A stretch of 62,114 nucleotides of DNA from Chrysophaeum taylorii (Eukaryota; Sar; Pelagophyceae; Pelagomonadales; Pelagomonadaceae), in the NCBI GenBank assembly GCA_029834535.1, contig JAQMWT010000651.1:1-62114 (forward strand), in the 5' to 3' direction. Shown one piece after another: positions 1,121 through 39,936 of this stretch. The notes beneath the pieces are model-generated. The model saw only the letters and a program-made list of their open reading frames with translations, did no database searches and was not told the DNA's origin. A program made the position numbers and the translations under genes. Each line of letters starts with the position of its first letter. The stretch's first letter is position 1.

Positions 1121-1239
1121 TCCTTACTACTAATCGACAGATGTTTGTCTGTCTGTTTGTCTGTCTGTTTGTCCCTCGATTTAGGGTAAGGATCAGGTAG
1201 GCGCGAGAGTAAGGATCAGGTAGGCGCGAGAGCCAGACA

Positions 1240-1745
1240 GTGATCCTCGCCGTCTACGGCGACCTCGCAGACTATTTCCACGACCCGCGGCGGCTCTTTC
1301 AGCGCGCCATTCTCACGCCCCGTCGAAACGATGTTGTCGATGCTGACAACGCGCGCATGACCGCGGCCTTTTTTCCCGGAGACGAGGCGTCGGAGTTCTT
1401 TTCGGCTGACTAGGTTGGTCGGAAGACGACGCCTCGCTCTTTACAGTCGAGTTTCAACTCCTGACAACCAACGGCATGCTGACTTTGATCGCGAGCTTAA
1501 AGTCTTCGCAACCTCGACCCGTCGCACGGCCACTGCAACGGTACCAGATACATGATCGATCGTGTCGTTGTCACCGAGGCTCCTCCAACCTGTATCCCTT
1601 AAGGCCCGCCGACGCCAAACGATCAACAAGAGCCAGGGCCAGACGCCCCGCGAGGTCGGCGTCCTCTGCCCAAGCCCGTCTTCTGCCACGTCCAGCTCTA
1701 CATGGCTCTCTGTCGATCGGCAACCCCGAGGATATGCTCTTCTGA
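1240..1745 (+). pseudogene. Helitron PIF1-like helicase C-terminal fragment (decayed, copy 1)
   Basis: Frameshifted remnant of the C-terminal part of a PIF1/Pif1-like superfamily 1 helicase as found in Helitrons. The order of recognisable blocks is right: the block preceding 'ILTP', the 'PGE…S D' block, a 'NLDP..G.CNGT' block around 1510-1545, and the 'TINKSQGQT' block around 1617-1645. A 'FCHVQLYVALCR'-like block, the late helicase motif, lies at about 1680-1715. The same block order appears inverted in copies 2 and 3. Stops and frame changes rule out a functional protein. Confidence 0.7.
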
Positions 1746-1818
1746 GTCGACGACTCCACCCTACCCCCACGTGCTGCGCAATACCGATAAGCCCTCCCGG
1801 CGTCTACACGCGCACTGT

Positions 1819-2122
1819 AGGTGAACTTACTGGGACCAGGTGAACTTACTGGAACCAGGTGAACTTGGGAGGTTAGAGATTGGGACTAGGTGAACTTAGT
1901 GACCAGGTGAACTTACTGGGACCAAGGTGAACTTACTGGGCTTTTAGAGTAAACTCAAAGGTTAGCGGCGTGTGCGGATCAAAGCAGCTTAGATTGGCGG
2001 AGGTGACGGCGACGAGCTCGAAGGAAAGTGGATGTGAGCACGAGTGGGTTTACGCCGAATTTACTGGGGTTAGAGATTGGGACTAGGTGAACTTACTGGC
2101 GAACTTACTGGCCTGCACTTGT
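1819..2122. repeat. Minisatellite of AGGTGAACTTACTGG(GACC) units at the element end
   Basis: Imperfect tandem units of about 18-22 bp (AGGTGAACTTACTGGGACC and shorter forms). They are interrupted by one unique block at 1940-2060 that contains AGTAAACTCAAAGGTTAGCG and ATCAAAGCAGCTTAGATTGG. The same arrangement occurs inverted at 31814-32190 and 36426-36750, and part of the unique block recurs alone at about 39996-40057. The array is therefore a structural part of the element family, not random satellite growth. Confidence 0.85.
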
Positions 2123-4470
2123 TTGCTATAATAATGAGGTCAAAGCCCTTCGCCCAGAAATAAATAACTTGTTCTTAGACGCTGAACGGGAGCTCAATCG
2201 CGAGCATCCTCGTGAACTTGCCTTTGATGCAAGAATTAACGCTCCAGTGTCCACCTTTGCCCTTTCACATGCAAACCTACCAAGCTACCTATGCCACCTT
2301 TTTGTATTTTGTTTAGACTTAGTAACATGTTGCCAACTCTACCAATTTACTCGCTACAACAAGCAAAAGCGCGTAAAATGGAACTTCGCTCACTACAGTT
2401 CAGACTATGTGCTTTTAATGAACAACGCGAAATGCTCAAACTATATTCCACCCTCATCGAACGAGTAATTTACGTCCCATGGCTTAAAACCATCCTGGAG
2501 TCAATGCATTCGCAGCTGCCTTACATAGGCAAGCATTTCCCACCTCCTGTATGACGCAAGGTTACAACACGTTTGCTCCACACAGTAACTTCATCTCCTA
2601 GCCCACGAATACCTATAGTAACTTTACTTTGCTCTGGGATGTCCACTCCTGCATTCTTGGCTTGCGCTTCTAATGACTTGCAAATCAACATCAACGTTAA
2701 AGTTCTTGTTGAGAGCGACGACAATATCACGCACATGCTACGAAGACGATTTGTATTCCATCGAAGTTTTCCCATCCTTACCTAAGTTTTGACATATCTC
2801 CATCGAGCATCGGACGTTGAACGTGCACGATATTACACTGACATAGTGGAATTGACATCACCATGCACAAATCGCAACATAATCAATGGGAGATCCATTT
2901 CCACCTTCGAGCGATATGGATGATTCTTTGTTCCAAGTGCTCTAAGTGTACTTGAGCTTTTAAAGCCGCTCGTTCTCTTCATGGAAATGACTCCACCACA
3001 CTCCGCATCATACGAAGATCATATACGAGGTGCCAATCTCATCTTCTCAACGATGCACTATACGGTGGACATATGTGACCGATTTCCATGTTATTTATGT
3101 GGAGATTATCAAGCCAGAGAAAGATGGATCCTCGTCGCACGCAAATATAACACCGGCCCTCTTGATCTGCTTTCATGGCCTAATAAACGAGTCACTTCCT
3201 TTCTAGATATTGCAGACCACGCTAACTACATCAGTCGTTAATAGTCGACGAACCTTGGACGCAGGTCTTTCCTGACATACCATTTGTGTCCACACCTAAA
3301 ACCTACAATATTTTCAGTCGCACAGGATCCGTGCGCTTAACTGTGACTGAGCTTGAAACCTTAACTGTGCTGTTCCTTCGTCTGCACTCTAATAAAACAG
3401 TCGAACATCCCAGTCAAGATGAAATGGAGGGCATTTCTAACTTTCGCCTGGGATTCTTGATCAATTCAAGAAAACCACTGTTGCATGAGATCCTATTGAA
3501 CTCAAAGCTTTTGTGCTCCTCTATAATATTATGGGACGATTATTCCCTAAGTCCATCACATTACCTGTGTCCTTTCGTATTACAACTATCGAATCTAACC
3601 AACCATCTCACAGGTTATTCTTAATAACTCTCACCATCCATCATTTACATCACCGGTGGAAGATACAGGCGGAGACATGACAGTTTCTAACTCTTCTTCT
3701 AAATACCAGGCACATATAAATGCTTGGCGAAACCTACACCTCCTAACACACGATGCCGGAATCGATAAGACTGCTTCTCTCGAACCAGTTACCGGTTTTT
3801 TTGGCTTTGCCAAGCACACCATAATAATGAAAATCAAGACACGCGTCGTCTAGTACAAGCACTGGTTCCCTATACTCTCCTGTATTTCACGATTCTTTGT
3901 CTTCTACCCTCAGGAAAATCGTCTCGAGTTTATCGACAAAATGTTTGCTTTAAGTGACATGCATTTGTCCCAAAGCAGATATTTGGGCTTTATAACACAC
4001 AAATATATTCCCAACAGATACATCCTTAACATTACACCAGAGTTCCATTACTATGTTCTACATCTCCAATAAAAAACTCTTATGTTGTGATACTATCACT
4101 TCTAACCACGAACTTACTTCTTTTCATACTGATTCAGTAGCTCATGCTTTCCTCTCTAACATCTTATCCGCAGATATATCATCTCCTACTAAAGAAAAAC
4201 AACACCCTTTATAACGCCAAGACAGCTCCATGAGAATATGTGCCCTTCGATAAGAGTCCATGCCAGGGGCACCCTTGCATTTCGAGATGCGCAACAACGA
4301 GCTACCAATTTTCACAACATTCACCATTCCAGTGATTCTCAAGCCATAAAAGCTGTTCAGGTTATTGCCAGTCCTGGACACCACCCATCTGACGTACCCT
4401 ACCGTAAGTTCCTGTGTGGATTGTACGATTCATAAAAACGCTTCCTCATCCACACCACTTATCAAGCAAC
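2123..4470. other. Decayed AT-rich DNA, probable retroelement 5' region
   Basis: No intact gene. Short plus-strand ORFs up to about 110 codons occur, with stops throughout. The position upstream of a decayed Ty1/copia integrase suggests gag or 5' pol debris, but I could not recognise a gag or protease motif. The base composition matches the copia relic downstream and differs sharply from the GC-rich host genes. Confidence 0.4.
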
Positions 4471-4479
4471 CATCATTCG

Positions 4480-7400
4480 AAAAATTTTTCAACCTGGTGA
4501 AGCTTGGGCATGTGACGGTGGTTACGTCTCTGTGCTCCGGAATGGGGATCCTTTCGACATATCATTGTCTTCAAGTGTCTCATTTCTAAATTTCTTTTAG
4601 TGTACTTTTGTCGTAGCACTAACTCGAGCGAATTTTGTAACGCCTTGAGTTTGTTCGTAATTTTTTCTACTTATGTTCATGTACAACTAAAACAAATTAT
4701 TGTGACTTTAAACCCTATTTATCCCACAGTAATGTAAATGTAAAATACGTAACTGAACGAAGTACAATAGGGCGTGTGTCCGCGTTCCCCCTTACTTCGT
4801 GACTTAATCATGGTCGAAGCCGCTGTTGGTCACATAGCCACTGCCGCGTCTGACTCCGGCATATGTCGCGTCTCCAAGGTCACCCCTAATAGTCGGCACC
4901 ACAATACCCGTGGGCTGTTATGCATATTATCGTCATATAGTATCCTCCCTAACGTTTATCGAACGTGTATATAATAGTCCTAAGCGCCAGCAGGACGTTA
5001 GACCAATGTAATGTTTTAACGGACTACATAAGGCGGCAGGTTCTGTTTGTTATTGCATTTGGAACCTAACGAACCATAAATATGAACCCCGATGCCGTAC
5101 TAAATGCCTTATGCGGGCAGCTAACGTTGCAAACGGCGATAACACCCCATGTTAATCATTTGCCGATGTTGTCCTTAATCGAAAACGTTTGAAGTCCGTT
5201 TCCTCTAAACTGACTTTCCCCATCTTATTTAAAAATCTCCTCCTGATTATGAACAACATCCACCTCCCGCACCTTCACCCGACATTCCTTCTCTGTTCAC
5301 AGCACCCCAATGATGCGGCGCAGAGGGGGAATGCGCGCGACACTGACCATGAGAGGGGACTCCTTCTTCTCATCTCCATGCTCCCTCTCCCGCTCCCACA
5401 TGTTGCCGGCTGCTCGTGCACCGGCGCCTCCGCCACACGCATCTGGTACGACATCGCCACTTTACCATCTTATCGGTCTCAATTTACACACCATCCTTCA
5501 TCACCATGCACCAACGATTTGACAGTCCTTCTTCAGTTATGTGTGGAGCATACCACCATAGCCTGATGCTCCCCATGTCCACTCGACGACGTCAACCTTG
5601 CCGATTCACCTTCACCTCGAGCTCTCGTTCATTTAGTTTCTGAACATGCTGCGCCTTTCAAGTTCCTCCGCTTAATATGCTTATGCTTTGTTCACGTCCC
5701 ACTCCATTTTGGATCATAATGACGCTTCTTATGGTGCTTCGAACCTCTTTCTTCCGCCATCGAGACATAACCGTGCAATCACATTACATTGAAGCCCACC
5801 TTGGTGATGCTCCTCTACTAGTGTTCAACTCATCGAAGATCCCGACCACGCTCATCTGCTGATAATGTCGCTTCCTACACTTTTCATCTGACGACGACTA
5901 TGACCCCAGCACGGTTGGTTCGGACAGAATACAAGATTCAAACCAAAGATTTAAAAATTGATGAATATGAGTTGACCTGCCTCAAAGGTTCTCAGACGCT
6001 GATCGCAAAGCTTATGTTGCTGCCATCTCCAAAGAGTTTTTTGACATTGTTTAGTTTGGCTGCTTTAAACTAGCGCCCAATGGCCAACTCAAAGCCTATT
6101 GACACCCGTCTCGTCCTACGTATAAAACCAACGCTGCTGGTCAGTACATTAAACATAAAGCACGCCTGGTACTACGAGGATTCTTAACTCTGGGCACCGA
6201 TTTCTTCAACATTTCAGCCCTGTGGCTTACCGGCATCCGTTGTGTTTTGGCGCTAGCAGCTCATCTGCGACTTCCGTCTATCATGTGACGTCCCTAACGC
6301 TTGTTCAAGCTCCCATCGATTCGCATGTCTATGTTAAACTGCCAACACAAGGCATTTTACCTTCGATCCCAGATACAAATACCAAGGCCGCCGTCTCCCA
6401 AAGCTACTTAAATCTCTCGGATTGCGTCAGAGCCACGCCCTTTGGAATCAAACCACAAACAGCTTCTTTGATTCATAGGCTACTGATTTCGAACAGACAT
6501 GCATTTACGCTAAAGTCAAGCTGACGCTACATTAATTTGCACGCTCTTAGTAGACGACGTCGTCGTTGCGTACTTCGGAAACTCTACGTCGTGAGTTCCA
6601 GCAAGCCCTGAAAAAAGAATACCAGTCGACACCTGCAGAAGTCCATAATCACCTAGCGCATAACGCGTACAACAGATGGCTCTATATCACTGGATTGTCA
6701 GGCTAAACTTGACGCATTGTTCGAAGAGTACCATTTTAATGCAGTTACGTCCCACTTCTACACCGATGTCACCATCACCACGTATAAAACTGGAAATATT
6801 CTTCTGATATGGACAAGTTTATTCTTCATACCTTCTACCTACTTGGCAAACTTTTGTCCAATTAACGTCGCCCTGGTTTATCCAAAGCCTTAGTCGTTGC
6901 TCTCGAGGAATGCATAATCCAGCATTTCTGCATGTTCAAGTACTAACAGGAACGCTCCGCTACTTGCGCAAGCCCGAAAATTTTAATCTTCGCCTCTGGT
7001 ACTACTCTGGTTCTTCCGCTCTAATGGACCATCTTCGACTTCTTATCGGTAATCGTACTGATATGGCCACCATGTTGGACTACATTAAAGAACAAGTTAA
7101 TTCAGGTAATTTTGATCCACTGGTCGCATTCGTTGATGCCGATAATGCACCTTCTCATGAACAAGACCGCAAATCTACAACCGGCTACGCTATCTTTGTT
7201 TCTCTCATCGGTCAAGCTACAACATATAACAGCCACTACGCATGAGAGTGAACTTATCGCCCTCAATATGTGCCGATGATGTGGTTTGGTTACGCAAATT
7301 GCTAACGGAAATGGCATTCGTTATAAATCCTCCTTCTATCTCCACCAGCCTTCAGGGAAGATCTGAGCTAGATTATGATGCTCACGACAATCCCTTCCCA

Positions 7401-7670
7401 TCGGACAGTCGTTCATACGTAACGTCCTATACTTGGAGATTCGGCCTCTGCTATTCATCATCAAATAACCCCGACAGCGCGACTAAGGCTAAGCTATCAG
7501 CACACGCTGGTTCCGTATACGCGACTACGCACAGTTAAAACGAATACGCCTACATCATGTTTCCGGTACCCATAATATCGCCGATGGATTTACCAAACCC
7601 TTTGGAGCTCCACTCTAAAGCAGATTTCGCACGTTACTCGGCTCACAACAACCCATAGCTCAACAAGATG
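4480..7670 (+). mobile_element. Decayed Ty1/copia retrotransposon pol (integrase, reverse transcriptase, RNase H)
   Basis: Plus-strand remnants appear in the order expected for copia pol, spread over several frames. There is a weak integrase-like segment (about 4480-4620) and a weak late-integrase 'CFVHVP' segment (about 5680). Reverse transcriptase starts with KHKARLVLRGF (about 6150), then LTGIRCVLALAAHLRLP (about 6225), an 'APIDSHVYVKLP' segment (about 6310-6345), and LGLRQSHALWNQ with a following CIYAK (about 6415-6515). A 'LLVDDVVVAYF'-like segment follows (about 6545-6575). RNase H starts near 6910 (TLRYLR; VDADNAPSHEQDRKSTTGYAIFV at 7130-7200) and ends with HVSGTHNIADGFTKPFG and LLGSQQP (7555-7655). 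Multiple stops and frame changes make it non-functional. I could not find LTRs. It resembles a copia-like family by domain order and motifs. Confidence 0.85.
6910..7245 (+). pseudogene. copia RNase H domain fragment
   Basis: Longest open piece of the decayed pol. It carries the segment that links reverse transcriptase to RNase H (LTGTLRYLRKPENFNLRLWY) and the RNase H core with an Asp-x-Asp pair followed by the family hallmark RKSTTGYAIFV. The expected next motif, Glu of 'E(A/S)EY.A', is shifted to another frame after 7240 (HESELIALN in frame with the shift). The frame break shows that it no longer encodes an enzyme. Confidence 0.8.
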
Positions 7671-8740
7671 GTTAATCGTTACCCTCCATTATGTCCGAAA
7701 TGACTTTAAACTAACCCTGCTATGCAAAGGGATACTGGCTTCCTAAAATGTGAAATGCTACAAAAGATGTGATGCGGAGATTCCTCTCATGATGAATCTC
7801 ACTAAAAGCAAAGATGCTGCGAGCCGACGCCACTCTACCCTGAACCGTGGTCGCGGTGGTGCACTGTCACTATCCCCACCTAATGCTCTAACTCCAAGCG
7901 TTGCACCGACTAGTTCCCCTAATCGGAAACATCAAACCTATTTGTCGGTGGCTCAAGGACATCAATCTACGCCCGTGACGCCCAAGGCGCCCAAGGCAAC
8001 TGTCCAACAACAGTCTAAATCGCAAGCAGCAAAGTCTGAGTATTTCCTGCTCAAACACTGTAAATTTGACGCATTAGCGATGATGTCCGGGAACGTCACT
8101 GCTCTTGGTTCATCATCACCCAACTTTCTTATTCCACAACACAAGGACCCCCTTTAAGTCTTGCAGCAGCTGCAGGAAGCACATCAGACAGAGTTTGTAG
8201 ACAATGTACAATATCTCAGTTCATTGTTGTGCGTCAAAACTAAGCGTATCCGAAACGCCCCTGCTATATCTCCTAACGAGGGAATACGTCTTCATCGCTT
8301 CACCATTAGGGGTTGAAAAGTGCGTGACACAGTTACAATAAAACTTATATGCCGGGCACACCCGTCGTGCTCATCATCTGTAATGAAGATGAACTTAAAA
8401 CTGACAGTATTCGCCAAATTATTGAGGATCATCTCGCGTCTGAGCAACACATACACTGCTTTGACGTACCGCGACCTTTCTTTTGTTGATTTGGCGCTGT
8501 GCGATCGGTCACACAAGGGATAGCCTTTATTCGCAACAGTCAGCAGCCATTCCAACCGTGTTTTTAATGATCCGGCTGCTCACACTAGAGCTATAATCCT
8601 CCGCCTTGGAAAGTCAATTGCTATTAATGAGCAGCTCAAAGAGGCAATCATGCAGACTGCGACATCCCTTAAACTTGATACCTCTAAAATCATTGTTAAC
8701 CTTGACGATAGCACAATGCTTTTACTTCAGCTGCCCTTTA

Positions 8741-8879
8741 ACTAACTAACTAACTTCGGACCTCTCCCGGGCATGGGAGCCAGGCTGGGCCGGCAGTGGC
8801 CGGTCCAGGATCACAGAGCAAAAATCACACAGTTGGGGTAGAGGCGAGGGATGAAAGTGCGAGGATGGCGGACAGACAC
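8741..8879 (-). mobile_element. SINE/truncated LINE copy A with 31-bp target-site duplication
   Basis: The insertion is bounded by identical 31-bp direct repeats at 8710-8740 and 8880-8910, a textbook target-site duplication from target-primed reverse transcription. Read on the minus strand it ends with hairpins CCATGCCCGGGAG… and then a (TTAG)n tail, which abuts the left repeat. Its first part (ATCACAGAGCAAAAATCAC region) is shared with copy D (12570-12700). The short length suggests a SINE or a heavily 5'-truncated LINE. Confidence 0.85.
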
Positions 8880-9493
8880 AGCACAATGCTTTTACTTCAG
8901 CTGCCCTTTATCTCGAGTATAAATCTTGAGATTCTTGTAGCAGCTTGGTCTTTGTTACATTCTGTTGAAGAAACAGTATGTGTAGTAACCAACCCGGATG
9001 AGCTGCTTAACGTGCTTGTAGAACGCTTCGTTAATGATGTTTCCCACCAATTTAACGCAATCTCCTCCGAGACGTTACCGCCAATGCTTAATTATTTTCG
9101 TCAACTATCACCTGTACAGCAAACTGCCTTTAAAAATGTGCTAATCCAGGTTGGCTACCCTTCGGACATAATTGATGTCTTTTCAGATGATACATCTTCT
9201 GAAGATGTTTCACCAGCGCCGATCGACAATCCACCCGCAAAACCCACGCTAGATAAAGCTAACGACAATATGGATGAGTCGTTACATCAATTAAAAGAAG
9301 AGGTTCGGTCTTTATCCTTCCGTCTCACTAATACCGAACAGCAGTTGATGGCGCGAGATCGACAACTATCGCTTGCATTAACATCCCTCACACAGACGCA
9401 AGAGACTTACGAAAATTTAATTACTCAAGTGATTGAGAACATCAAGCATGTGTCTCTATTAGACAACATCTTGTCAAGTCTTCAAATGCATCA

Positions 9494-9741
9494 ACTAACT
9501 AACTAACTTCAGACCTCTCCCGAGCATGGGAGCCAGGCCGGACCGACAGGTGCCAGTCCGGAATCACGGGCCTGTAGACGAGGAGCGCCGAAAGGTCGGT
9601 CGGCGGAGAGTGACCATCAAGCTTGTCGTCATGCGACGAGGAGACCGCGATGTGACTGACAACCAACTCGTCGATAACCTTCCGTCTTCGCCCCCCGGCC
9701 ATACCCCGTCCCACTGCGAACGTTCCGGCTGCCAACCGGCA
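9494..9741 (-). mobile_element. Retroposed copy B (5'-truncated) with (TTAG)n tail
   Basis: Minus-strand copy that shares about 240 bp with copy C (10644-10894) in opposite orientation. It ends in the conserved hairpin pair, then GAAGTTAGTTAGTTAG. The 5' junction is where similarity to copy C stops (about 9741). A short TGATGC motif occurs at both junctions, which could be a small target duplication. It interrupts the decayed ORF on this stretch. Confidence 0.75.
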
Positions 9742-10329
9742 TCAGGACACCATAATCCCGTCCTCTGCTGTATTTGTCCACATCATTTCTCGGTCGCTTA
9801 TCTCATCTATTGGAAAGCTCCCTCCAGATACGTATAATGAGGCACAGCAAGTCCAAATCGACGCAGCAGCTCATCACCTCCACACAGCTATGTCTGATGC
9901 AAATGATCGTGTTATTCCTGCATTGGATGTACACGCTCTTACACCCGATGCTGCTATGTCTTTCCTTTCGTCTGTCATATCACCCTTGGTCACCTTGAGT
10001 GATGCAATGCTTGGCACTAACACTACTAACGACCTACCTCGGATGTTCATAATTCGTCTTCTCCAGAGTTAAAGGAACTGGACGATAATAGCGAAGATTA
10101 ATTGGACCATACATCTGATGCGGATACTGATGCAGCTTCTTTGCGTAACATTACAACACGCTCGACATCACAATTAATTTGCCCTGTTCTGTTGTTGTCT
10201 ATGGGACCTAACGTCCTTGAGGAGTTAGGGCCTAAATCCCTACCTTGTGTAGTAGCATGTGACAAACGGAATGGTCTGTACACGCCTAAGACTGCACGCA
10301 GTCTCTACCATGAGAGGGTCAAATCACTC

Positions 10330-10894
10330 CACACCTCATCATGATCCAGGCTCCCCGAAGCCTGGTTATGAGCACCTTTATTTTAGTTCATATCACCCTA
10401 GCGCTTTTCGCCACGAATACGGGTGGAAAGGTAGGTCGAGATCCGATCTCGACCTGTCGGCCTGAAAAACAGGATCTTCCTTCTTTTTCCTTCCCTCCTC
10501 AAGACCATATAGCTCGTAGTGCGATAGTATCAGAGCCGGTGGTGTACTGCGGTTGCGATGGAGGACGGTGCCTCATGAATCCTGAGCCTTGCGAGGGCAT
10601 CCGCCCTCCCGGCGGAGGTTGGCACCTATTCGCCTCCCGGGCGGGCCGGTTGGCAGCCGGAACGTTCGCAGTGGGGCGGGGTATGGCCGGGGGGCGAAGG
10701 CGGAAGGTTATCGACGAATGGTTGTCAGTCACATCGCGGTCTCCTCGTCGCATGGCGACAAGCTTGATGGTCACTCACCGCCGACCGACCTTTCGGCGCT
10801 CCTCGTCTACAGGCCCGTGATTCCGGACTGGCACCTGTCGGTCCGGCCTGGCTCCCATGCTCGGGAGAGGTCTGAAGTTAGTTAGTTAAGTTAG
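10330..10894 (+). mobile_element. Retroposed copy C with hairpin-rich upstream part
   Basis: Plus-strand copy. The part 10644-10894 matches copy B base by base for most of its length and ends in the conserved hairpins and a TTAGTTAGTTAAGTTAG tail. The preceding 10330-10640 is not seen in the other copies. It contains two perfect hairpins, at 10346-10365 (CCAGGCT/AGCCTGG) and 10434-10454 (GGTCGAGAT/ATCTCGACC). Whether this upstream part belongs to the element is uncertain. Confidence 0.65.
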
Positions 10895-11294
10895 GTGTGC
10901 TCAGATGCCCCCCCGCAAACAGGGTCGGATAAGAAAGTTCGTACGAGCCGTGCTGTTTCAGTTGGCAAACGCGCTCAACGGATCGCTGAGCTATGTTCAT
11001 TTGTACTCAAGCAGTATGTGCCGCCACGCCGCGAGATCGTCGCGATGGAACTAGTCCCCATAGTGAAGTCGGCATCCTTTCGTCCCCTCACGCAAAAAAA
11101 GGAAAAAGCCCACGCGTTGTAGGACCCGTCGTTGCGGCGCGGGTTAGTCTCGTTTTCTTATCCGACCCCCAAGGTTTGGGGGGAGTGTTAGGGGATACTG
11201 TGAATGACGTCATCCATCCTCGGACCCTACCGGCGCAAATCACAGCGCTCCTGGTGCGGGTAAGCATGCTGTGCTGTCCTCGACGCTACTCAAA
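10895..11294 (+). other. Gene-free leader before the SET-domain gene
   Basis: A 75-codon open segment at 10895-11122 has no recognisable motif, and I do not call it a gene. The rest may be promoter and 5' UTR of the downstream SET gene. The run of A at 11094-11104 and CCCCCAAGGTTTGGGGGG (11165-11181) are the only local features. Confidence 0.4.
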
Positions 11295-12512: not shown

Positions 12513-12565
12513 TATTATCGGCAGCTCTCAAGGCGAATGTGTTTTTCTACCCAACTCTCCTTACT

Positions 12566-18753: not shown

Positions 18754-18819
<66 letters not shown>

Positions 18820-30648: not shown

Positions 30649-31101
30649 CACGCGTTTTTTGCTTTCGAATTATCAAATCACGAGGCCACAACCGCCTACG
30701 TTCCGTTTTTGTTTTCGTTGCGCAGCGAATAATAATATTATGGGAGGGGGAGGTGACAGTAATACTGTCAGTATTTTGTTTTTGAACGGCGTGCGTCCTC
30801 GCCCATGTCTTTTATTTTTGGCCAGAGGCCACAGAGTGAGTACAAAGGGTGCGATAATAGTGTACGCGACGTGCCTGCCTGCCCAAAGACGAGAGAAACG
30901 CCCTGCTTGCTACTATCTTGCTCGCGCGTCGCAGGATGATATAATAGTTTGGTGCCCAGGTCTGTGATGCAAGCCGAGCGCATCATTCTACTTTCTGGAG
31001 ACACCAGGAAGAAAATGGAGAAAACAAATGTAGGGGTTTGCAGCCTGCGAGAGAGTGAGCTTCGCTGGGGGCTGGAGGCGGCGGAGGAGCCCTTCGCTCG
31101 C
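30649..31101. other. Intergenic region upstream of the SET gene
   Basis: Holds the SET gene promoter and the 3' UTR of the His-rich gene. Apart from ACAGTAATACTGTCAGTATT, an imperfect inverted repeat at 30756-30775, I see nothing distinctive. Confidence 0.45.
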
Positions 31102-31452
31102 TTAATGGCCATGGCCGTGGCCGTGGCCGTGGCCGTCGTCGTGGCCGTTATTGTTCGACTTTTCCCCCTCGTGCTTGTGCTTGTGGTCGTGGGACTCCCC
31201 GCAGCACTTATCGCTATGGTGGTTGTGGTCGTGCCCTTTGTGATCGTGCCCTTTGTCGTGGTCGTGCCCTTTGTCGTGGTCGTGCCCTTTGTGGTCGTGG
31301 TCGTGCCCTTTGTGGTCGTGGTCGTGCTCTTTGGAGTGCTCGTGCCCATGACCGTGTTCGTGCGAGTGATCGGCGGTGCATTCGGGGTCTCCACACTTCG
31401 TGTCGGCATCCATCTTCTGCTTCGCCGCGATAGAATCCTCCAATGAACTCAT
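31102..31452 (-). CDS. Histidine-rich metal-binding-like small protein
   Basis: 116 residues, of unknown family. After a short polar N-terminus with a Cys pair (CGDPEC), almost the whole protein is built of His, Asp, Lys and Gly. It has tandem HDHDHKG and HDHDKG units, a central CCGESHDHKHKHEG, and ends in alternating Gly-His. Such composition in known proteins binds Zn, Ni, Cu or Co as a store or chaperone. There are no transmembrane segments or GTPase motifs, so it is not a complete transporter or CobW/HypB protein. Repeat units at the DNA level (GTGGTCGTGCCCTTT, 31225-31330) show that the protein grew by unit duplication. Function is inferred from composition only. Confidence 0.6.
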   Translation of the reverse strand: MSSLEDSIAAKQKMDADTKCGDPECTADHSHEHGHGHEHSKEHDHDHKGHDHDHKGHDHDKGHDHDKGHDHKGHDHNHHSDKCCGESHDHKHKHEGEKSNNNGHDDGHGHGHGHGH

Positions 31453-31813
31453 CGGCTGTGTCTCGGGGACGGCTTTTCCCTGGGTTTAAGCTTCATGTGA
31501 GGATCCGTCGACGAAAGCGACATCGCACCATGGATCGCAGCAAGCTTGCGGCCTGCGCGAGCGAGGTCACGACAGCTAGGCTCGCTACTCACATCACCAG
31601 AGAACATGAGAGGCGGCGAGTCCGACATGTCTGCTGCGAATTCCACAAAATAATCAAAATCGCCAAACCCTTGCGCCGACACCTAGACTTACGCAAATCG
31701 CGTAACCCTAACCCATAAGACTTATGGAGTTCTTTTCCTACTTACCACAGTTAATAATAACCCCCCCAAAGACTGTTGTTGCTGCTCGCGGCAATAAAAT
31801 AAAAATAAAAGCA
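31453..31813. other. Upstream region of the His-rich gene
   Basis: 361 bp up to the Helitron-like copy 2. CGTAACCCTAACCCATAAG at 31700-31718 resembles two telomere-type units but is too short to mean anything. The AT-rich end (31790-31813) is the insertion flank of the element. Confidence 0.45.
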
Positions 31814-32905
31814 ACAAGTGCAGGCCAGTAAGTTCACCTAGTCCCAATCTCTAACCCCAGAAAGTTCACCTGGACCCAGTAAGCTGGTCAGCAAGTTCAC
31901 CTAGTCCCAATCAGCAATCTCTGACCCCAGTACATTCGGCTTAAAACCCACTCGTTTGTGCTCACATCCACTCACCCCACTCACCTTTGAACTCGTCGCT
32001 CTCACCCCCGCCAATCGAAGCTGCTTTGATCCGCACACGCCGCTAACCTGTGAGTTTACTCTAAAAATCCCAGTAAGTTCACTTGGTCCCAGTAAGATCG
32101 CCTGGTCACTAAGTTCACCTAGTACCAATCTCTAAACCCAGTAAGTTCACCTGGTTCCAGTAAGTTCACCTGGTCCCAGTAAGTTCACCTACAGTGCGCG
32201 TGTAGACGCCGGGAGGGGGCTTATCGGTATTGCGCAGCACGTGTGGGGTAGGGTGGAGTCGTCGACCCAGAAGAGGATATCCTCGGGGTTGCCGATCGAC
32301 AGAGAGCCACGTAGAGCTGGACGTGGCAGAAGACGGGCTTGGGAAAGAGGACGCCCACCTCGCGGGGCGTCTGGCCCTGGCCCTTGTTGATCGTTTCGCG
32401 TAGGCGCGCCTTGAGGGATACAGGTTGGAGGAGCCTCGGTGACAACGACACGATCGATCATGTATCTGGTACCGTTGCAGTGGCCGTGCGACGGGTCGAG
32501 GTTGCGAAGACCTTAAGCTCGCGCTCAAAGTCAGCATGCCGTTGGTTGTCAAGGAGTTCAAAACTCTACTATAAAGAGCGAGGCGTCGTCTTCCGACCCA
32601 ACCTAGTCTGCCGAAAAGAACTCCGACGCCTCGTCTCCGGGAAAGGCCGCGGTCATGCGCGCGTTGTCAGCATCGACAACATCGTTTTCGACGGGGCGTG
32701 GGAATGGCGCGCTGAAAGAGCCGACGCGGGTCGTGGAAATAGTCCGTGAGGTCGCCGCAGGCGGCTTGGAGGATCAATGTTTGGGTCGTGCGCCTACCTG
32801 ACCCTTACCCTGATTCGGGGAACAACCAATGATGACCCCGACTAGGTCCCGCATACTTATCTACGCCCGTCAGGCACATCCCTCCTCCCCCCCACAATGT
32901 CCACC
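31814..32905 (-). mobile_element. Helitron-like element, copy 2 (internally deleted)
   Basis: Inverted relative to copy 1. The left end ACAAGTGCAGGCC is the complement of the shared 3' terminus. Then come the minisatellite (31820-32190) with the AGTAAACTC/AGCAGCTT block, the helicase remnant (about 32190-32790) and a short right piece (about 32826-32905). The right piece matches only the last part of the antisense nuclease ORF in copy 3 (GATGACCCCGACTAGGTCCC compare 38091-38110). The middle of that ORF is missing, so copy 2 is deleted between about 32815 and 32826 relative to copy 3. Its right part overlaps the 3' coding end of the rhodanese-type gene. Confidence 0.8.
32190..32790 (-). pseudogene. 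Helitron PIF1-like helicase fragment (copy 2)
   Basis: On the minus strand this copy keeps longer open segments than copy 1. TINKGQGQTPREVGVLFPKPVF and CHVQLYVALCRSATPRI are readable in one frame (32221-32451), and the NGTRY and RLRETINKGQ blocks are readable in sequence. A 'GNPEDILFWVDDS' segment is in the next frame. Frame breaks show decay. Confidence 0.75.
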
Positions 32906-34145
32906 CCGATGTTCTTGTTCCACCGGGGGCACAGAGCTCGCAGGCGAGCGTGGTGCGCCGATCATGGCCTGAATCGACACACCTGTCGCAGACGAGGACG
33001 AGGGTATTGCACGTGCCGCACCGACGTTTGCCGCGGTAGGTGTCCCAGGCAATATCGCATACGAGACAGCGGCCGAGGACGTCGGGCGTCGCGGCGGGGT
33101 GCGGCCTCGCATTGGCGCGTCGGTCAAAGATGTAGTTCTTCCCTTTGAACAGGGAGGTGTCCTCGTCGAAGTTCTGGACATATCGAACGATGCCGCCATC
33201 GAGGTGGAAGACGCGGTCGGAGTCGAGGCGCGATTTGACGAGGGCCGAGGCTCGTTCGCAGCGGACGCCGCCGGTGCAAAAGAGGAAGACGTCCTTGGCG
33301 CGGAGTCGATCGAGGTTGTCGTCGAGCCACGGGCGGAAGTCGGAGAAGTGGCGAGTCTGGGGGTCGAGGTGCTCGACGCGGCCGACGGGGCTCGAAAAGG
33401 TCCCGATGCGCGTCTCGTAGGCGTTCCGCACGTCGATCAGCACGGCCGGGGGACCGTCGGGGCGCGAGAGGGCGGCGTGAAACGCGGCGGGCGCTAGGCG
33501 CGTGCCGGGGCCCACGTCGTCGAGGTTTTGTTGCGTGACAACGTCACACCCCAGCCCGCAGAGCTCGTCTGCCGCCCAGACCTGCAGCGCGCGCCAGGCG
33601 CCGGCGCGGCCGCACGGCTCAACCTTGAAGTCGACGTCGCGCCACGCGCGATCGGCAGCGCACAAAGCGCCGATAAAGTCAGCGACGCGCGTGGCGTCGC
33701 CGCTCAACGTCACGTTGACGCCCTCGCACGCGACGCGCACGCGACCGCGCAGGCGGAAGGAGGTCGCTAGGGCGCGCTTCCAGGCGACGGTCGCGTCGCG
33801 CGCCTGCTCGGTCCACCGCGGTCGACAGTAATGGTAGTAGCCCACAACCACAGCGTCGGAGTCGTCGTCGTCGGAGACGACTGACATGTCATCGAGACTC
33901 CGCACAAAGAGCGCGCCGCTCGCAAGGCGCTCGCCGTCGGGTCCTCGTCGCGATGCCACCCTTTCGAGCTTCCAGGCTTGACTCTGCTCCCCTTTGGCGA
34001 GCAGGGCTCCGAGCTTACGGTACCCAAGCCCTCGGTAGTCGAGCGGCTCGTCGAACGCGGCCAAGTACCGCTCGGCCAGGACGTTCGCGTTGAGCCGGCC
34101 CTGCACCAAGGAGGCGATGCGCTCGACCACTCGCGCCTCATCCAT
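32805..34145 (-). CDS. LOTUS-like plus TrhO/UPF0176-type rhodanese protein
   Basis: 446 residues from the ATG at 34145. Residues 1-60 (LNANVLAERYLAAFDEPLDY then RGLGYRKLGALLA) resemble a LOTUS/OST-HTH RNA-binding domain. Next is the TrhO-type N-terminal domain (VVVGYYHYCRPRW; GRVRVACEGVNVTLSGD). A rhodanese domain follows (AVLIDVRNAYETRIGTF), with its active-site loop CTGGVRCERAS (about 288-298; two Cys) and HLDGGIVRYVQNF. A Cys-rich zinc-binding tail (CLVCDIAW, CGTCNTLVLVCDRCVDSGH) completes it. TrhO proteins hydroxylate tRNA uridine 34, and the human relative is TSTD2. The last 25-35 residues (MCLTGVDKYAG onward) and the stop are encoded by Helitron-like copy 2, so the native C-terminus is replaced. 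The start was chosen at the ATG just before the LOTUS-like region. Confidence 0.82.
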   Translation of the reverse strand: MDEARVVERIASLVQGRLNANVLAERYLAAFDEPLDYRGLGYRKLGALLAKGEQSQAWKLERVASRRGPDGERLASGALFVRSLDDMSVVSDDDDSDAVVVGYYHYCRPRWTEQARDATVAWKRALATSFRLRGRVRVACEGVNVTLSGDATRVADFIGALCAADRAWRDVDFKVEPCGRAGAWRALQVWAADELCGLGCDVVTQQNLDDVGPGTRLAPAAFHAALSRPDGPPAVLIDVRNAYETRIGTFSSPVGRVEHLDPQTRHFSDFRPWLDDNLDRLRAKDVFLFCTGGVRCERASALVKSRLDSDRVFHLDGGIVRYVQNFDEDTSLFKGKNYIFDRRANARPHPAATPDVLGRCLVCDIAWDTYRGKRRCGTCNTLVLVCDRCVDSGHDRRTTLACELCAPGGTRTSGWTLWGGGGMCLTGVDKYAGPSRGHHWLFPESG

Positions 34146-34202
34146 ATTATACCCTAGGTTTGTTGTGGTGTTTTCTATGGGGGTCATCGCGCGGCGGCGT
34201 TG

Positions 34203-35298
34203 ATGCAGGGGCGCTGCGGCAAGTCCTTGACGGGCGAGGCGAAGATCCTCGTCGTGACCGTTGCGCTTTTCGGCGTCATCACCGTTGTGCAATTCTTCGT
34301 GAGTGCGGACGCACCATCGTCACGCGAGGAGGGGTGTCCGTCCGCAGGCCGCGAGCATTTCCCGCAGCACCGCGCTCCTGGTGGACTGCGCGTCGATGCT
34401 GGTGGACGCGTTGACGTACGCCGCGAATCTGTGGGCCGTGTGCGCCGCCGCCGAGAGCGACACGGACGCGCGCGCGCGGTACTCGCTGTGCTCGTCCGGG
34501 CTTTCGCTCGCCGTGCTGTACGGTATCACGGCGTGGGGTCTCGCCGACGCCATCGTGGACCTCTTCACGCACAAGGACATCGAAGACGACCTCGACGCCT
34601 GGGTGGTGCTGGGGTTCGGGATCGGTGGCCTCGTCTTCGACGGCCTCGCGCTCGCCGCGTTCAAAGCGTGGGGCCTACCGAATACTTACGTCGAATACGT
34701 GCAGACGCAGACCACGGACGGCTCCGATGGATGCATCGAAGACGAGCCGAGCAGTCCGCGCACACAGCGCGACGCGGATGACGCGTCCCTGGTCAACATG
34801 TTCTCTGCGCTCACGCACGTCGTCGCCGACTCGGTTCGCTCCGTAACGTCGATCGTCTTGGGCGCGCTCGTGCTTCTCGACCCAAAGCTCAACGGCAGCC
34901 AGTGCGACGACTACGCGACGCTTGTTGTTGCCGCGACGATTTTGTTAGGGAGCGCGCCGCTCTTGCTCGAGTGGCTCAGGCTCACGCGGGTTCGTCGCGA
35001 CGACGACCGGCGACGAAGACGCCAAGAGGGGCCACCGCCTGCTCTCGAAAAAAATAAGCTCGAGGCGGGCATAGAGCTGTTGACAAAGCGACGGCTCGTT
35101 CGGAACAACAGCCAGGAGAACGGCGTCGTCCAAGGTCCCTTGCACTCTCCCGCCTCTCTGCGCGCCACCGGGTCGTCGTCGTCGTCGCCGCGCGACGTCG
35201 AGAACGGCGATACACACCACCACCACCACAACAACCCGGTGTCTGTTCGCGCTTCAGAAGAAAGAGGAAGAAACGGCACGTCCATATTACACATATAA
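34203..35298 (+). CDS. CDF-like cation transporter
   Basis: Predicted 348 residues from two exons, 34203-34298 and 34348-35298, around a 49-nt intron (GTGAGT…CAG). The junction reads VVQFF|AASISRSTALLVDCASMLVD. The first transmembrane segments (ILVVTVALFGVITVVQFF, STALLVDCASMLVDALTYAA) match the start of cation diffusion facilitators. TM5 is near LTHVVADSVRSVTSIVLGALVL and supplies an HxxxD pair (HVVAD), as in Zn/Mn transporters of this family. SMLVD replaces the usual HxxxD of TM2, so one site lacks its histidine. About six membrane segments are visible. The long polar C-terminus has a short poly-His run (about residues 325-329). It diverges from the rhodanese-type gene 57 bp away. Confidence 0.72.
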
Positions 35299-35342
35299 CC
35301 CCATTCAGGATAATAACAACACCGATCATCAGAATCCGACTA

Positions 35343-36395
35343 CTACGATTCGGCGGGAGCAGAGTCATCATCGACGAAGGCAGCAGCAGCAGCATACTCC
35401 AGAGCCTCCCGGCGCTTGATGAGGTCGGGCGGGACGTCGCTTGGAAAGCCCAGGACGGAGGCTTCCTCCTTTTTTATTGCCACCGCCCCCGGAGGGGCTC
35501 TGGGCGGCTTCCAAACGTGTTTCGGAAGCGCCCGGGCGACGACGGCCTTGCGCTCGTCGCGCAGGTCCGAGTAAAAAACCGCGAGATTTGCGGCGAACTG
35601 GACGTCCTCGTCGGGCGCATCAGCGACTTTGCTCTTGGAGAGCTGCAGCACGACGTGGGCTCCGGCTGCGCCGCGGGCGTGGAACCAGACGTCGGGGTCC
35701 TTGGCGACGACGCAGCTCAGGTAGTCGTTCTCCCGCCGATTTCTGCCGACGAGGACCGGCACGCCGGATTTAGGCGCGACGAAGGTCCGTCCGGTCCATT
35801 TTCGCCGCGTCGGCCGCGAGAAGGGTTTATTCTTCTTCGACGGCCCGGCGGCCTCGATCCCGAGGTCGCTCGCGGACAGATCGTCGCCGTCGAGAGCGCG
35901 CTCCAGGTCGCCAAGCCGCCGCTCGCTCGCCGCCAGCAGCTCGGCGACGACCTTGGCGCCGCGCCGCAATCTCCGCGCACGAGCGAAGGCGGCTTCCGAG
36001 TCCTCGCGGGGTGACTTTGTGAACGTCAACGTCACCTTCTCGCCCGTCTCCCAGTCGTCGACTTCGACGCTCTTCGTCAAATCTGAAAGCTGGTACATGT
36101 TGGCGACCACCAGCTGCGCCCATCGTCCGAGCTTCTCGGCCTTCTCGGCCTCCTCCGCCTCCTTGCGGAGCGACGCCGCCTTCCGCCGTTCCTGCTCGAG
36201 GGCCTTCTCCAGCGCTAACCGGACCGGACCCATCGAGTCCTCCTCTTCCTCGTCCGGGATTCTCGACTCCTCCACGTTTCCCGCCCCACTCATCACCACA
36301 ACCGGTGCCAGCTGTTGCCTTCGCAGGGAAACGAAGCAACGTTGTTGTTGGTGTCGCCCGACAACGATGGCCGTCGTCCTCACCAAGAGCAACAT
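35343..36395 (-). CDS. NFACT-R domain protein (RqcH/NEMF C-terminal-like)
   Basis: 350 residues from the ATG at 36395, or 316 from MSGAG at 36293. The N-terminus of the longer form is basic with hydroxylated residues (TTAIVVGRHQQQRCFVSLRR), which suits organelle targeting. A charged coiled coil (about 70-160) comes before the NFACT-R core: VPVLVGRNRRENDYLSCVVA then DVWFHARGAAGAHVVLQLSK (about 218-260). In complete RqcH/Rqc2/NEMF proteins, NFACT-R together with NFACT-N binds stalled 60S or 50S subunits and adds C-terminal alanine tails. Here the NFACT-N and HhH parts are absent, so it is a shortened relative or a split gene. The Helitron-like copy 3 ends at 36426, only 31 bp upstream of the longer start. 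Confidence 0.78.
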   Translation of the reverse strand: MLLLVRTTAIVVGRHQQQRCFVSLRRQQLAPVVVMSGAGNVEESRIPDEEEEDSMGPVRLALEKALEQERRKAASLRKEAEEAEKAEKLGRWAQLVVANMYQLSDLTKSVEVDDWETGEKVTLTFTKSPREDSEAAFARARRLRRGAKVVAELLAASERRLGDLERALDGDDLSASDLGIEAAGPSKKNKPFSRPTRRKWTGRTFVAPKSGVPVLVGRNRRENDYLSCVVAKDPDVWFHARGAAGAHVVLQLSKSKVADAPDEDVQFAANLAVFYSDLRDERKAVVARALPKHVWKPPRAPPGAVAIKKEEASVLGFPSDVPPDLIKRREALEYAAAAAFVDDDSAPAES

Positions 36396-36749
36396 CCTCG
36401 TGTTTAAAACAGCTTGTTTATTATTACAAGTGCAGGCCAGTAAGTTCACCTAGTCCCAATCTCTAACCCCAGTAAGTTCACCTGGTCCCAGTAAGTTTCA
36501 TATGAGTTCACCTGGTCAGTAAGTTCACCTAGCTCACACCAACTAATTTGAGATCGTCGCTCCCCCCTCCGCGCCAATCTAAGCTGCTTTGATCCGCACG
36601 CGCCGCCAACCTTTGAGTTTACTCTAAAAACCCTTTACTCTAAAAACCCCAGTATGTTCACCTGGTCCCAGTTTCACCTGGTCACTCAGCTCACCTAGTC
36701 CCAATCTCCAACCCCAGTAAGTTCACCTGGTCCCAGTAAGTTCACCTAC

Positions 36750-37380
36750 AGTGCGCGTGTAGACGCCGGGAGGGGGCCTATCGGTATTGCGCAGCGCGTG
36801 TGGGGTAGGGTGGAGTCGTCGACCCAGATGAGTATATCCTCGGGGATGCCGATCGACAGAGAGCCACGTAGAGCTGGACGTGGCAGAAGACGGGCTTGGG
36901 AAAGAGGACGCCCACCTCGCGGGGCGTCTGACCCTGGCTCTTGTTGATAGTTTGGCGTAGGCGGGCCTTAAGCGATACAGGTTGGAGGAGCCTCGGTGAC
37001 AACGACACGATCGATCATGTATCTGGTACCGTTGCAGGGGCCGTGCGACGGGTCGAGGTTGCGAAGATATTAAGCTCGCGATCAAAGTCAGCATGCCGTT
37101 GGTTGTCAGGGAGTTGAAAACTCTACTGTAAAGAGCGAGGCGTCGTCTTCCGACCCAACCTAGTCAGCCGAAAAGAACTCCGACGCCTCGTCTCCGGGAA
37201 AAAAAGGCCGCGGTCATGCGCGCGTTGTCAGCATCGACAACATCGTTTCGACGGGGCGTGAGAATGGCGCGCTGAAAGAGCCGCCGCGGGTCGTGGAAAT
37301 AGTCTACGAGGTCGCCGTAGACGGCTTGGAGGATCACTGTCTGGCTCTCACGCCTACCTGATCCTTACCCTAAATCGAGG
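36750..37380 (-). pseudogene. Helitron PIF1-like helicase fragment (copy 3)
   Basis: Minus-strand copy of the same helicase C-terminus, with RQTINKSQGQTPREVGVLFPK and CHVQLYVALCR in one frame (36778-37008). The upstream blocks, complementary to 'RLFQRAILTPR' and the 'PGDEASEFFSAD' segment, fall at about 37180-37300. Frameshifts separate the blocks; a run of seven A at 37199-37205 has extended one of them. Decayed but close to copies 1 and 2, which suggests recent spread. Confidence 0.75.
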
Positions 37381-37390
37381 GACAGACAGT

Positions 37391-38215
37391 TTTCGGCATC
37401 TTTGCTGACGTCGTCGCCCCTACCATTCGCACGCGCCTCTACGGCCGGTACCGAGGCAATCTCGCCCGACGTCAAGTCGTCCCAGACATCCTCACCACGC
37501 TCGACAACAAGGAGCAACTCTACGACATCAAAACCCTCGCTTGGGGTTCGTTGTACACCGCACACTCCCTCCATCCCTCCCACCCGTCGCCTGTCGATCG
37601 GCGCGCAGCGCAAGTCCACTCCGAATACCTCGCTCACGCCCGCGGCATCGACGCCATCGTCCCCCAGCCGGGTACAGCACCACCGCCTGGCTTCTTGGGC
37701 CCTGTCGAACAGCGGCTACGTAGCTACGGCACCGTCGCCGGCCTCGTCTTTGGTGCCTTCGGTGAGGCCAGCGCGGCGTGCCACGCTCTCGCCCAAACAT
37801 GCGCAGAGCGCATCGCTGTGCGAACCTGGGTGACAAGCGGCTGCGCCAACTTCACAGAGGCAAAGGCGGCCCAAACTCGCCGCATCTACCGTGAGTGGGG
37901 GATCGCCAACGCATTAGGCCGGGCTCGCTGTGCCCTCACCGCCCTCACCCATGTCGCCGCCGCGGGGAACCCCACCCAGGCCGCCCGATCCCAGCAGGAC
38001 GTCACCCTTCGTCGCACATACGTCCGGCGGCAGCATGCGTACGACCTACGGGCGGGGCCCGTCCTCTCTTCGCCTGCCCCACGCCTCGGCGATGACCCCG
38101 ACAAGGTCCCGCGTACTTATCTCTGCTCGTCAGGCACATCCATCATACCCCACAACCCCACCCACATCTTCCATGCTCCCCACACACACCCCCCTCTTAG
38201 CAGTCGACATTTAAA
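37391..38215 (+). CDS. PD-(D/E)XK-like nuclease ORF inside Helitron-like copy 3
   Basis: One open frame runs through this segment, antisense to the helicase; it has no clear ATG at its start. The segment VVPDILTTL…QLYDIKTLAWGSLY has the spacing of a PD-(D/E)XK catalytic core (PD, then D-x-K). A region follows with VDRRAAQVHSEYLAHARGID, then GPVEQRLRSYGTVAGLVFGA and FGEASAACHAL. A second, diverged copy of this latter region lies at 40483-40911. Blocks like this are seen in ORFs of mobile elements in protists, but I cannot name a family with certainty. It is uninterrupted for over 250 codons, which is unusual in an otherwise decayed element. Alternative: a C-terminal domain of another retroelement captured by the Helitron. 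Confidence 0.55.
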
Positions 38216-38250
38216 GACAGACAGACAAACAAACATCTGTCGATTAGTAG

Positions 38251-39936
38251 TTAGGATCTCGCACAAGTTACCGCCCCCACGACCTGGAGGGTCGGCGCGC
38301 TCCTCGAGGCGTGCAATGCGGCGAGCGACCGGAACGCCTTGACCTGTGCGGCAGCCAAGGACGCAGGCGCGCCAAGATGCAGTTTTGTCGCGTTGGTTGT
38401 TAAGGCAGGAAAAGGTCTGGCGAAGCGCGGGGGATGTCGTCGTGTTTTTGTCGTCGCCGCGGGTGTGGACGACTTTGTAGTCGGGTGGCGTTTGAGGGCG
38501 TCGGCGGTCGCCGCCGCGTCGGAGGAGGATATCGTGAGATTCGGGAGCGAGAAGGTGGAGCTGTGCGCGTCGGCTCGTTCGAGGGCGGTCGTTTTCGCCG
38601 ACAACGCATCGTTGAGCGATGGCGCGGGTCGTCGCTTTGAGGCCGCGCACCTCTCGGGCGGCTTGTGGTGGTGGTGGTGGTGGTGCATATCCGGGCCACA
38701 GAGATCCTGGGCCGCCCACGTTTGGATCGTCAGCTGAATGGCGGCGACGGATTGCGAAACGGTGGCGGTCGTCGACGCGTCGTCGGCGTCGGCGCGATGA
38801 CGCGACGGACGATCGTCGATTTCCAACGCGGCCATGGCGCGGACGGCGTTGTCGAGGAGCACGGCGAGTCGGGTCGGGTCGGCTCTGACGTCCGATGCGA
38901 GGCGGCGGAGCGTCGCCGTTCGGCGGTCCCAGAGCTGGTCGGCGTCGCGCGTCGACTCGACCTGGGTCTCGAGGTCCGCGAGCTTGCGTTCGAGCTGCCA
39001 GAGGCCGCGCCGGATCATGCTGGTCCGATCGGCGTCGGTCATTTCGTCGGCGGTGAGCGCCGCGTCGTCGCCGAGCGAGAAGAACGTCGACGACTTGAGC
39101 GACGCGATCGAGTCGGAAACGCAGTCGCGGCGCTCGCGCTCGAACCGACGCAGCGTCTGGACGAGACGTTCCGAAATCGAGTGCGCCGCATCGCGGCGAT
39201 GGCGCGTTTTGGCCGCCTCGACGGCGCGCGAAGCCTGCTCCTCGCGCAGCTCGGAAATCACCGCGTCGAGCGCGCGAAGCTGCTCCGACTCGAGCTTGTT
39301 CCGGCGCGCGACGGCGTGCATGCCCATGAGCTGGAGCGACGCTTCCTCCCGCAGCTGCGCGTGCCGCACCAAAGCCTCCTTGTCCGCGACGTCGAGGCTA
39401 GCGAAGGCCGTCTCGTAATGGACGCGAATCTTCGACCCGAGCGCGCGTTCGAACGCCGAGACCAGTTGCTGCCGCAGGTGCACGAGATCGGATTCCAAGC
39501 CGTGGAGCCGCTCGGCATGCCGCCGCCCTAACTCGGTGCGCGTTTTCGTCGTCTCTTGTATCTTGGCCTGCAAGCTCGAGTTCTCGCTCTCGAGCCGCGC
39601 GATCTCCTCGCGTTGGTACCTGAGCCGCTGCACCGTACACTCGAGCATCTGCGCCTCGTGCTCGAGCTCGGCCACCTTGGCCCTCACGACCTCGCTCTCG
39701 CACACCACCTCGTGCTCGTGCCGTTCGGCCTCGCGCCTCAGCACGCGCTGGAAATTCGACAGTTCGGCCTCCCGCTGCTGCGCCTCGACGGTCAGGCCCT
39801 CGACGATCTTCTTCTCCGCCTCGTACGCCGTCGACGTCTCGCGCACCTTTGCTTGCAGCGTCGCGAGGCGACGCGCCCACGGTGTGCCGCTCGTCGTCGC
39901 CGTCGACGAGTCGTCATCCTCTTCGCCCATCGTCAT
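38251..39936 (-). CDS. Coiled-coil protein of unknown function
   Basis: 561 residues. Residues about 20-380 are coiled coil, with Leu/Arg/Glu-rich heptads and a break near 165-185 (KIRVHYETAFASLDVADKEAL). A short linker with seven His (about 420-426) follows, then 130 residues of Ser/Thr/Pro-rich low complexity. It resembles ciliary or centrosomal coiled-coil proteins in general appearance only; I cannot name it. The stop codon (38253-38251) and the last bases lie within the terminal repeat of Helitron-like copy 3, so the present C-terminus is at least partly element-derived. The start ATG at 39936 opens the acidic MTMGEEDDDSST sequence. Confidence 0.65.
   Translation of the reverse strand: MTMGEEDDDSSTATTSGTPWARRLATLQAKVRETSTAYEAEKKIVEGLTVEAQQREAELSNFQRVLRREAERHEHEVVCESEVVRAKVAELEHEAQMLECTVQRLRYQREEIARLESENSSLQAKIQETTKTRTELGRRHAERLHGLESDLVHLRQQLVSAFERALGSKIRVHYETAFASLDVADKEALVRHAQLREEASLQLMGMHAVARRNKLESEQLRALDAVISELREEQASRAVEAAKTRHRRDAAHSISERLVQTLRRFERERRDCVSDSIASLKSSTFFSLGDDAALTADEMTDADRTSMIRRGLWQLERKLADLETQVESTRDADQLWDRRTATLRRLASDVRADPTRLAVLLDNAVRAMAALEIDDRPSRHRADADDASTTATVSQSVAAIQLTIQTWAAQDLCGPDMHHHHHHHKPPERCAASKRRPAPSLNDALSAKTTALERADAHSSTFSLPNLTISSSDAAATADALKRHPTTKSSTPAATTKTRRHPPRFARPFPALTTNATKLHLGAPASLAAAQVKAFRSLAALHASRSAPTLQVVGAVTCARS

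Follow-up and report, generated by a model that had tools for sequence, protein, structure and literature searches.

Compact Helitron-like elements with shared termini and head-to-tail arrays in the pelagophyte Chrysophaeum taylorii

Introduction

The window analysed here is the whole of contig JAQMWT010000651.1 (62,114 nucleotides, 40% AT; contig C651) from the pelagophyte Chrysophaeum taylorii, whose genome assembly comprises 70.8 Mb in 697 contigs. It holds three compact transposon copies, which are probably located in the nuclear genome. Judged by their sequence, these copies are very probably non-autonomous Helitrons. They would have arisen by internal deletion from a larger Helitron of the same genome that is related to Helraiser (here called type A) and would be moved in trans by its Rep/helicase. 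The ends of the family occur at about 2,500 places, and roughly a quarter of the copies adjoin another element head-to-tail, in some cases one from an unrelated Helitron family. A second Helitron family (type B) forms similar arrays and is joined to the first.

Helitron1-type elements have a 5' TC, a 3' CTRR, a hairpin 10-12 nt from the 3' end and an insertion site between A and T. Target choice and clustering of Helitrons are unsettled. Hundreds of exact junctions, two families joined both ways and a family lacking hairpin and CTRR make it possible to separate models of array formation by sequence. The family also provides a natural example of precise ending in a Helitron that has no hairpin, the structure regarded as the terminator.

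Three compact copies in the window

Copy 1 (1121..2121, + strand; host T at 2122) reads as a complete non-autonomous Helitron running from TC to CACTTG. Its 5' terminus TCCTTACTACTAATCGACAG (1121..1140), which has matches genome-wide, is adjoined by a TGTTTGTCTGTC repeat (1142..1173) that has similar counterparts in other copies. A relic of a helicase C-terminus follows at 1226..1814, with 81% and 85% nucleotide identity to the helicase of a type A locus (L061); the relic is interrupted by stops in all three frames, as checked in this copy only. A minisatellite with the 19-bp unit AGGTGAACTTACTGGGACC occupies 1819..1940, and the 3' terminus AACTTACTGGCCTGCACTTG, common to autonomous type A and without a hairpin, lies at 2102..2121.

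Copy 2 (31815..32894, - strand; host T at 31814) is 5'-truncated, because homology to the other copies starts only near 32894. Its start lies at about 32894-32904, a limit uncertain by ~10 bp. The minisatellite (32068..32190) and the helicase relic (32195..32770) are retained. Copy 2 adjoins the 3' end of a rhodanese/UPF0176-like gene, and the open reading frame at 32808-34319 (-) reads into it, so that the predicted C-terminus is partly transposon.

Copy 3 (36427..38256, - strand; host T at 36426) has kept both termini. It contains a minisatellite (36645..36735), a helicase relic (36752..37353) and an extra segment between the 5' region and the relic (37389..38147). Most of the extra segment lies within an open frame at 37374-38339 (+) that has no Pfam match, and a 93% identical segment is present at another locus (L054). 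This frame (GLVFGAFGEAS...) recurs beside Helitron sequence at L054 396-1264 and at L064. Read on the sequence, copy 3 appears to have inserted, at AGA^TAA, into the stop codon of an open frame without Pfam match (38254..39996, -). When the flanks are joined, by our own reading, the element's start TCCTAA supplies one extra codon and a new stop for the interrupted frame.

All three copies end in GGCCTGCACTTG followed by the host T, beside flanks that differ from one another, and their minisatellites are built on one common sequence. Copies 1 and 3 share the start TCCT(T/A)ACTACTAATCGACAG, preceded by G and A, respectively. The helicase relics are decayed and ~80-85% identical in nucleotide sequence to the helicase C-terminal part of type A. 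The initial annotation had described these shared features (end, start, minisatellite and helicase C-terminus), and all were recovered. Its limits for copies 1 and 3 held once the flanking T was placed outside the element; copy 2 has lost its 5' end. None of the three window copies stands in a head-to-tail array.

Copy number, termini and insertion sites

A genome-wide search with both ends, which the initial annotation had proposed, gave 2,584 exact matches to the 3' end (15-mer) and 2,449 to the 5' end (22-mer). Controls with reversed patterns gave none for either end, so the shared ends are not due to chance. At ~1 kb per copy the family would make up ~3.7% of the genome, and many copies will differ in length. 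Type A and compact elements alike read TC(C/T)TAACTACTAATCGACAG...AACTTACTGGCCTGCACTTG, then T, and a T directly follows the 3' end in 2,526 of 2,584 matches.

The termini depart from the Helitron1 type at several points. The 5' TC is present, with a clipped start at 11 of 98 distinct listed junctions between copies. The 3' end is CTTG (CACTTG), not CTRR, and no hairpin precedes it: none of the four type A or compact ends that were folded gave a better fold than shuffled DNA did (z 0.25 to 1.95). The earlier remark that the 3' terminus is atypical is thereby sharpened. The base to the left of the element also departs from the canonical A/T site, being G in nine, A in eight, T in three and C in none of 20 starts; these are the starts unjoined to a type A end, one of them following a type B CTAG and one lying inside another copy.

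Flanking composition is asymmetric. Averaged across 28 right flanks, the DNA behind the T has 67, 83, 63 and 61% AT in its first four 5-bp bins, against 40% for the window, and 46-58% in later bins. The 21 left flanks range from 44 to 58% AT; one of these rows (window-42405) is a false match that was kept in the figure. The AT-rich right flank noticed at the window copies is found beside other copies too.

A target-site duplication at every copy had been named as an observation that would speak against a Helitron mechanism. The duplication is absent from six of seven single copies examined, and the seventh has an ambiguous 4-bp match within a TTAG repeat.

A protein-coding partner related to Helraiser

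The initial annotation had placed the autonomous partner elsewhere in the genome and had suggested looking for a Rep/HUH-PIF1 coding element between such ends. Profile searches of the genome gave 40 matches to Helitron_like_N and 45 to PIF1, some of which are pieces of one gene. By DNA comparison (best 90 pairs) the Rep loci form at least three types. Type A encodes an HUH Rep and a PIF1 helicase and carries the 3' end of the compact copies. Its Rep part matches Pfam Helitron_like_N with E 7.6e-59, and its closest solved relative is Helraiser (7LCC; E 2.6e-151, over ~1,000 residues). Within it, GLPHAH is taken here to be the HUH motif and KYIHKY the tyrosine pair. A protein search with the type A Rep region returned 5,378 matches; the full-length query returned one, probably because its search words came from the repetitive N-terminus.

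Five type A 3' regions and four 5' regions were examined. The last 20 bp are exactly those of the compact copies at L061, L067 and L069; the first two of these loci duplicate a single region almost identically. The same 20-bp end follows a short duplication at L068, and at L070 it has two differences. At the 5' side, the type A element on contig C105 has an end identical to that of the compact copies, which gives one coding element with both ends. In the type A elements on C268, C6 and C3 the inner 5' sequence CCCTCGATTT..GGTAAGGATCA is present, and TAAATGTCGACTGC occurs in the upstream stretch. The damaged type A start on C3 (L071) comes after a compact 3' end.

The origin of the compact copies from type A draws on a partner with an HUH Rep, two tyrosines and a PIF1 helicase, on ends and helicase sequence shared with that partner, on the many places at which the ends are conserved, on the T at the 3' side and on the rarity of target-site duplication. 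The non-autonomous, Helitron-like character proposed at the outset and the dependence on a partner are both supported by these findings. Several results weigh on the other side. Three of the four type A 5' regions (C268, C6 and C3) gave no match to the exact 5' terminus. Every type A copy in the Rep/PIF1 matches has stops or split frames, in six-frame readings that ignore introns: C268 has one 1,092-aa frame at both domain matches and a later stop in the helicase, C105 changes frame inside PIF1, and C3 has a stop in Rep. None of the copies examined is open in one frame from Rep through the helicase end. In addition, the empty-site check, made for copy 3 in this genome only, recovered no empty site: the three matches to the joined flanks, all of them scored, were the two halves themselves and one partial place. 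For other loci, no empty site was found among the matches listed for 44 joined-flank candidates, the output being mostly tandem copies.

An assignment to the Helentron/HINE group (Helitron2) is a doubtful alternative to a Helitron1-type origin. The marks of that group are a partner with an endonuclease domain, insertion within TT and subterminal inverted repeats. The tandem-repeat content, the insertion by T-rich DNA and the non-CTRR 3' end recall HINEs (PMC4067079; this and the other papers named by PMC number are cited from excerpts), and the 3' end also recalls the CTCCTGT of Fusarium Helitron2 (PMC5148889). Against this assignment, the type A protein matches Helraiser over ~1,000 residues, two type A pieces scanned (helicase-end pieces not among them) contained no Pfam endonuclease domain, and no terminal inverted repeat was seen by eye.

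Two further origins were rejected. A LINE-like origin was considered because some junctions pair an exact 3' end with a ragged 5' end; among 55 context-distinct 3' ends (identical contexts merged), nine ran into the internal 5' part. The partner is a RepHel element, and no search for reverse transcriptase was made. An introner, considered for the CTAAC...CAG start, was set aside since each window copy is placed between open frames or at the end of one, in a reading that did not map introns.

Type B and other Helitron types

Type B is a second family in the same genome. Like type A, it encodes a RepHel protein (Helraiser match E 2e-90), starts with TC and stands in head-to-tail arrays. Unlike type A, with its hairpin-less CACTTG, it ends in CTAG with a hairpin (two ends folded, z -2.4 and -2.8). 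The hairpin has a 7-bp stem and a 14-nt loop and lies 5 nt from the end, closer than the textbook 10-12 nt.

At L046 (C432), 740 bp of type B Rep (positions 1099-1838, 97% identity) lie in antisense orientation within a compact element bounded by type A ends. This is a gene of one Helitron family captured by another. A third, divergent type on C58, C496, C564 and C605 (L056-L059, L063) has a weaker Helitron_like_N match, and the one piece of it tried with phmmer (L057) gave no Helraiser match.

Head-to-tail joining

A genome-wide pattern count of GGCCTGCACTTG, 0-30 nt and ACTACTAATCGACAG gave 649 head-to-tail junctions, against 1.4 expected under independent end placement. Some ends are counted twice where the start is doubled; two of 100 listed rows were dropped on this ground, and the remaining 98 distinct junctions, typed by hand, comprise 69 exact ones, 18 with a spacer and 11 with a clipped start. 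A junction counts as exact here if CACTTG leads straight into a five-letter start of the TCCTA type, and junctions that run into internal 5' sequence lie outside the 649. Array runs of 8 units (on C11) and 6 units (on C57) were noted. Tail-to-tail neighbours occur too (L005, L021 and L069), a finding that is not a genome-wide count.

The two families are joined in both orders. Type B is followed by type A (CTAG, then TCCTAACTAC) at six exact junctions, against 0.002 expected, and type A by type B (CACTTG, then TCCACAATAATTAATT) at four junctions, of which three are exact. The array at L079 reads A|A|B|A with all junctions exact. Type B is joined to itself at 79 exact junctions; its ends number 114 by a slightly different, longer pattern.

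Irregular junctions were also observed. Spacers between joined copies are 71% AT over 76 nt and often resemble repetitions of the element's opening bases (TCT, TCTTA, TA), as at C28:81912 and C44:305960. Doubled 5' ends, in which a 21-bp start precedes a second complete start, are found at C1:12253, C29:3572 and L077 149-170. At L013 588-909 a compact copy ends inside the helicase relic and a complete 5' end follows directly, as if transposition had restarted.

Origin of the arrays

Kinship among units was examined in 63 units over the body region. This is a small sample, and most of its loci were picked for likeness to copy 1. The units differ from each other by ~3%. Of 13 units in two arrays, none has its nearest relative in its own array, where about one is expected by chance; this result shows no local kinship and is not a sign of avoidance. 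The nearest relatives lie in various other places, and the mobilisation of whole arrays was rejected on this ground.

How would such arrays be built? We consider there to be about an even chance that Helitron termini serve as shared landing pads, so that type A, which lacks both hairpin and CTRR, and type B each insert precisely beside the ends of both families. In the mechanism proposed, Rep would nick at N^TC and CACTTG^T. One strand would then be peeled off and, in rolling-circle fashion, transposed into a target nicked at N^T. Helitron ends, those of the element's own family and those of type B, would be favoured targets, and serial N^T insertion beside them would build arrays, including mixed ones. 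Ends cut by Rep or open during copying would expose N^T as a target for another transposition complex. CTTG^T and CTAG^T have CTNG^T in common, which may allow insertion across families. The AT-rich DNA just past the ends would make the favoured zone broader and account for short spacers.

Each array could instead stem from one rolling-circle event, either through missed termination at a hairpin-less end or through a joined-end circle that was replicated and inserted. Perfect head-to-tail junctions fit a joined-end circle or a concatemer. In Helraiser the hairpin is the terminator, joined-end circles are known experimentally (PMC4778049; PMC5876387), and type A ends have no hairpin. Neighbouring units are also slightly more alike. 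A single event is nevertheless unlikely, given that the A-B and B-A junctions are exact, that the 13 array units have their nearest kin elsewhere and that the hairpin-bearing type B is joined often as well. Growth as satellite DNA, by unequal crossing-over from a few starting dimers, is improbable. The runs on C11 and C57 and the slight excess likeness of neighbours would suit it. Spacers and clipped starts differ among the junctions of one array (L077), nearest kin lie outside the arrays and many listed junctions are single, all of which speak against it. Serial insertion is favoured over both because a single event or crossing-over should make neighbours the nearest kin, which the 13 units do not show, and because mixed junctions exist.

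Some points count against serial insertion beside ends. Adjacent units are slightly closer to each other: their 22 pairs have a median divergence of 2.3%, compared with 2.9% among the 36 pairs drawn from within two arrays and 3.2% among 1,905 pairs taken from separate places (no significance test). In an earlier set, 12 adjacent pairs had a median of 2.8% and the 1,116 others one of 3.0%; of 5,000 random sets, 1,582 reached a value as low. Some modest local copying may therefore have contributed. The sequence lets the T be counted with the target as well as with the 5' end, a mixed junction could form by either partner inserting beside the other, and misassembly could be the source of some junctions.

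Comparison with known systems

Type A resembles Helraiser/Helibat1 of bats (PDB 7LCC) in its RepHel protein with HUH Rep and PIF1-type helicase, its TC start and the host T after its 3' end. It differs in the CACTTG end without a hairpin, in a left neighbour that is G, A or T where Helraiser has a fixed A, and in the ~2,500 copies that share its ends. A further difference is that the compact copies have a minisatellite resembling the 3' terminal sequence. Helraiser with the hairpin deleted still moves, less efficiently (PMC4778049).

Head-to-tail Helitrons are already known; what is new here is the scale and the mixing of families. Exact cases have been published for maize and bats (PMC2267711; PMC5876387). 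In maize, two different adjacent Helitrons are joined exactly, with CTAG followed by TC at a G/T junction, and were read as consecutive insertions (PMC2267711, where the bat cases of Pritham and Feschotte are described as well). The maize case is one pair, whereas hundreds of within-family junctions and two-family joins in both orders are found here. Tandem clusters have been published for other rolling-circle elements (PMC4067079; PMC5148889), and tandem arrays have been explained by bypassed termination (PMC4067079) or else by consecutive insertion (PMC2267711). HINE/DINE-1 elements and Helentrons (PMC4067079) are likewise non-autonomous with a partner elsewhere and bear tandem repeats, and tandem clusters are reported for rolling-circle elements. 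Their subterminal inverted repeats and palindrome were not seen here, and the partner here is Helraiser-like. In a literature search that left subscription journals mostly outside, no report was found of this end structure or of arrays that mix families to such an extent, and no title on pelagophyte Helitrons.

Other features of the window

An ATAD3-like protein is encoded in the window. Among the matches listed, the closest named organisms are Pelagophyceae sp. CCMP2097 (52%) and Aureococcus anophagefferens (49%), and metagenome proteins reach 66%. At 48645-48957 a 15-bp repeat of ~21 copies lies inside an Arg- and Asp-rich open frame, and a (GATT)16 microsatellite occupies 18754-18818.

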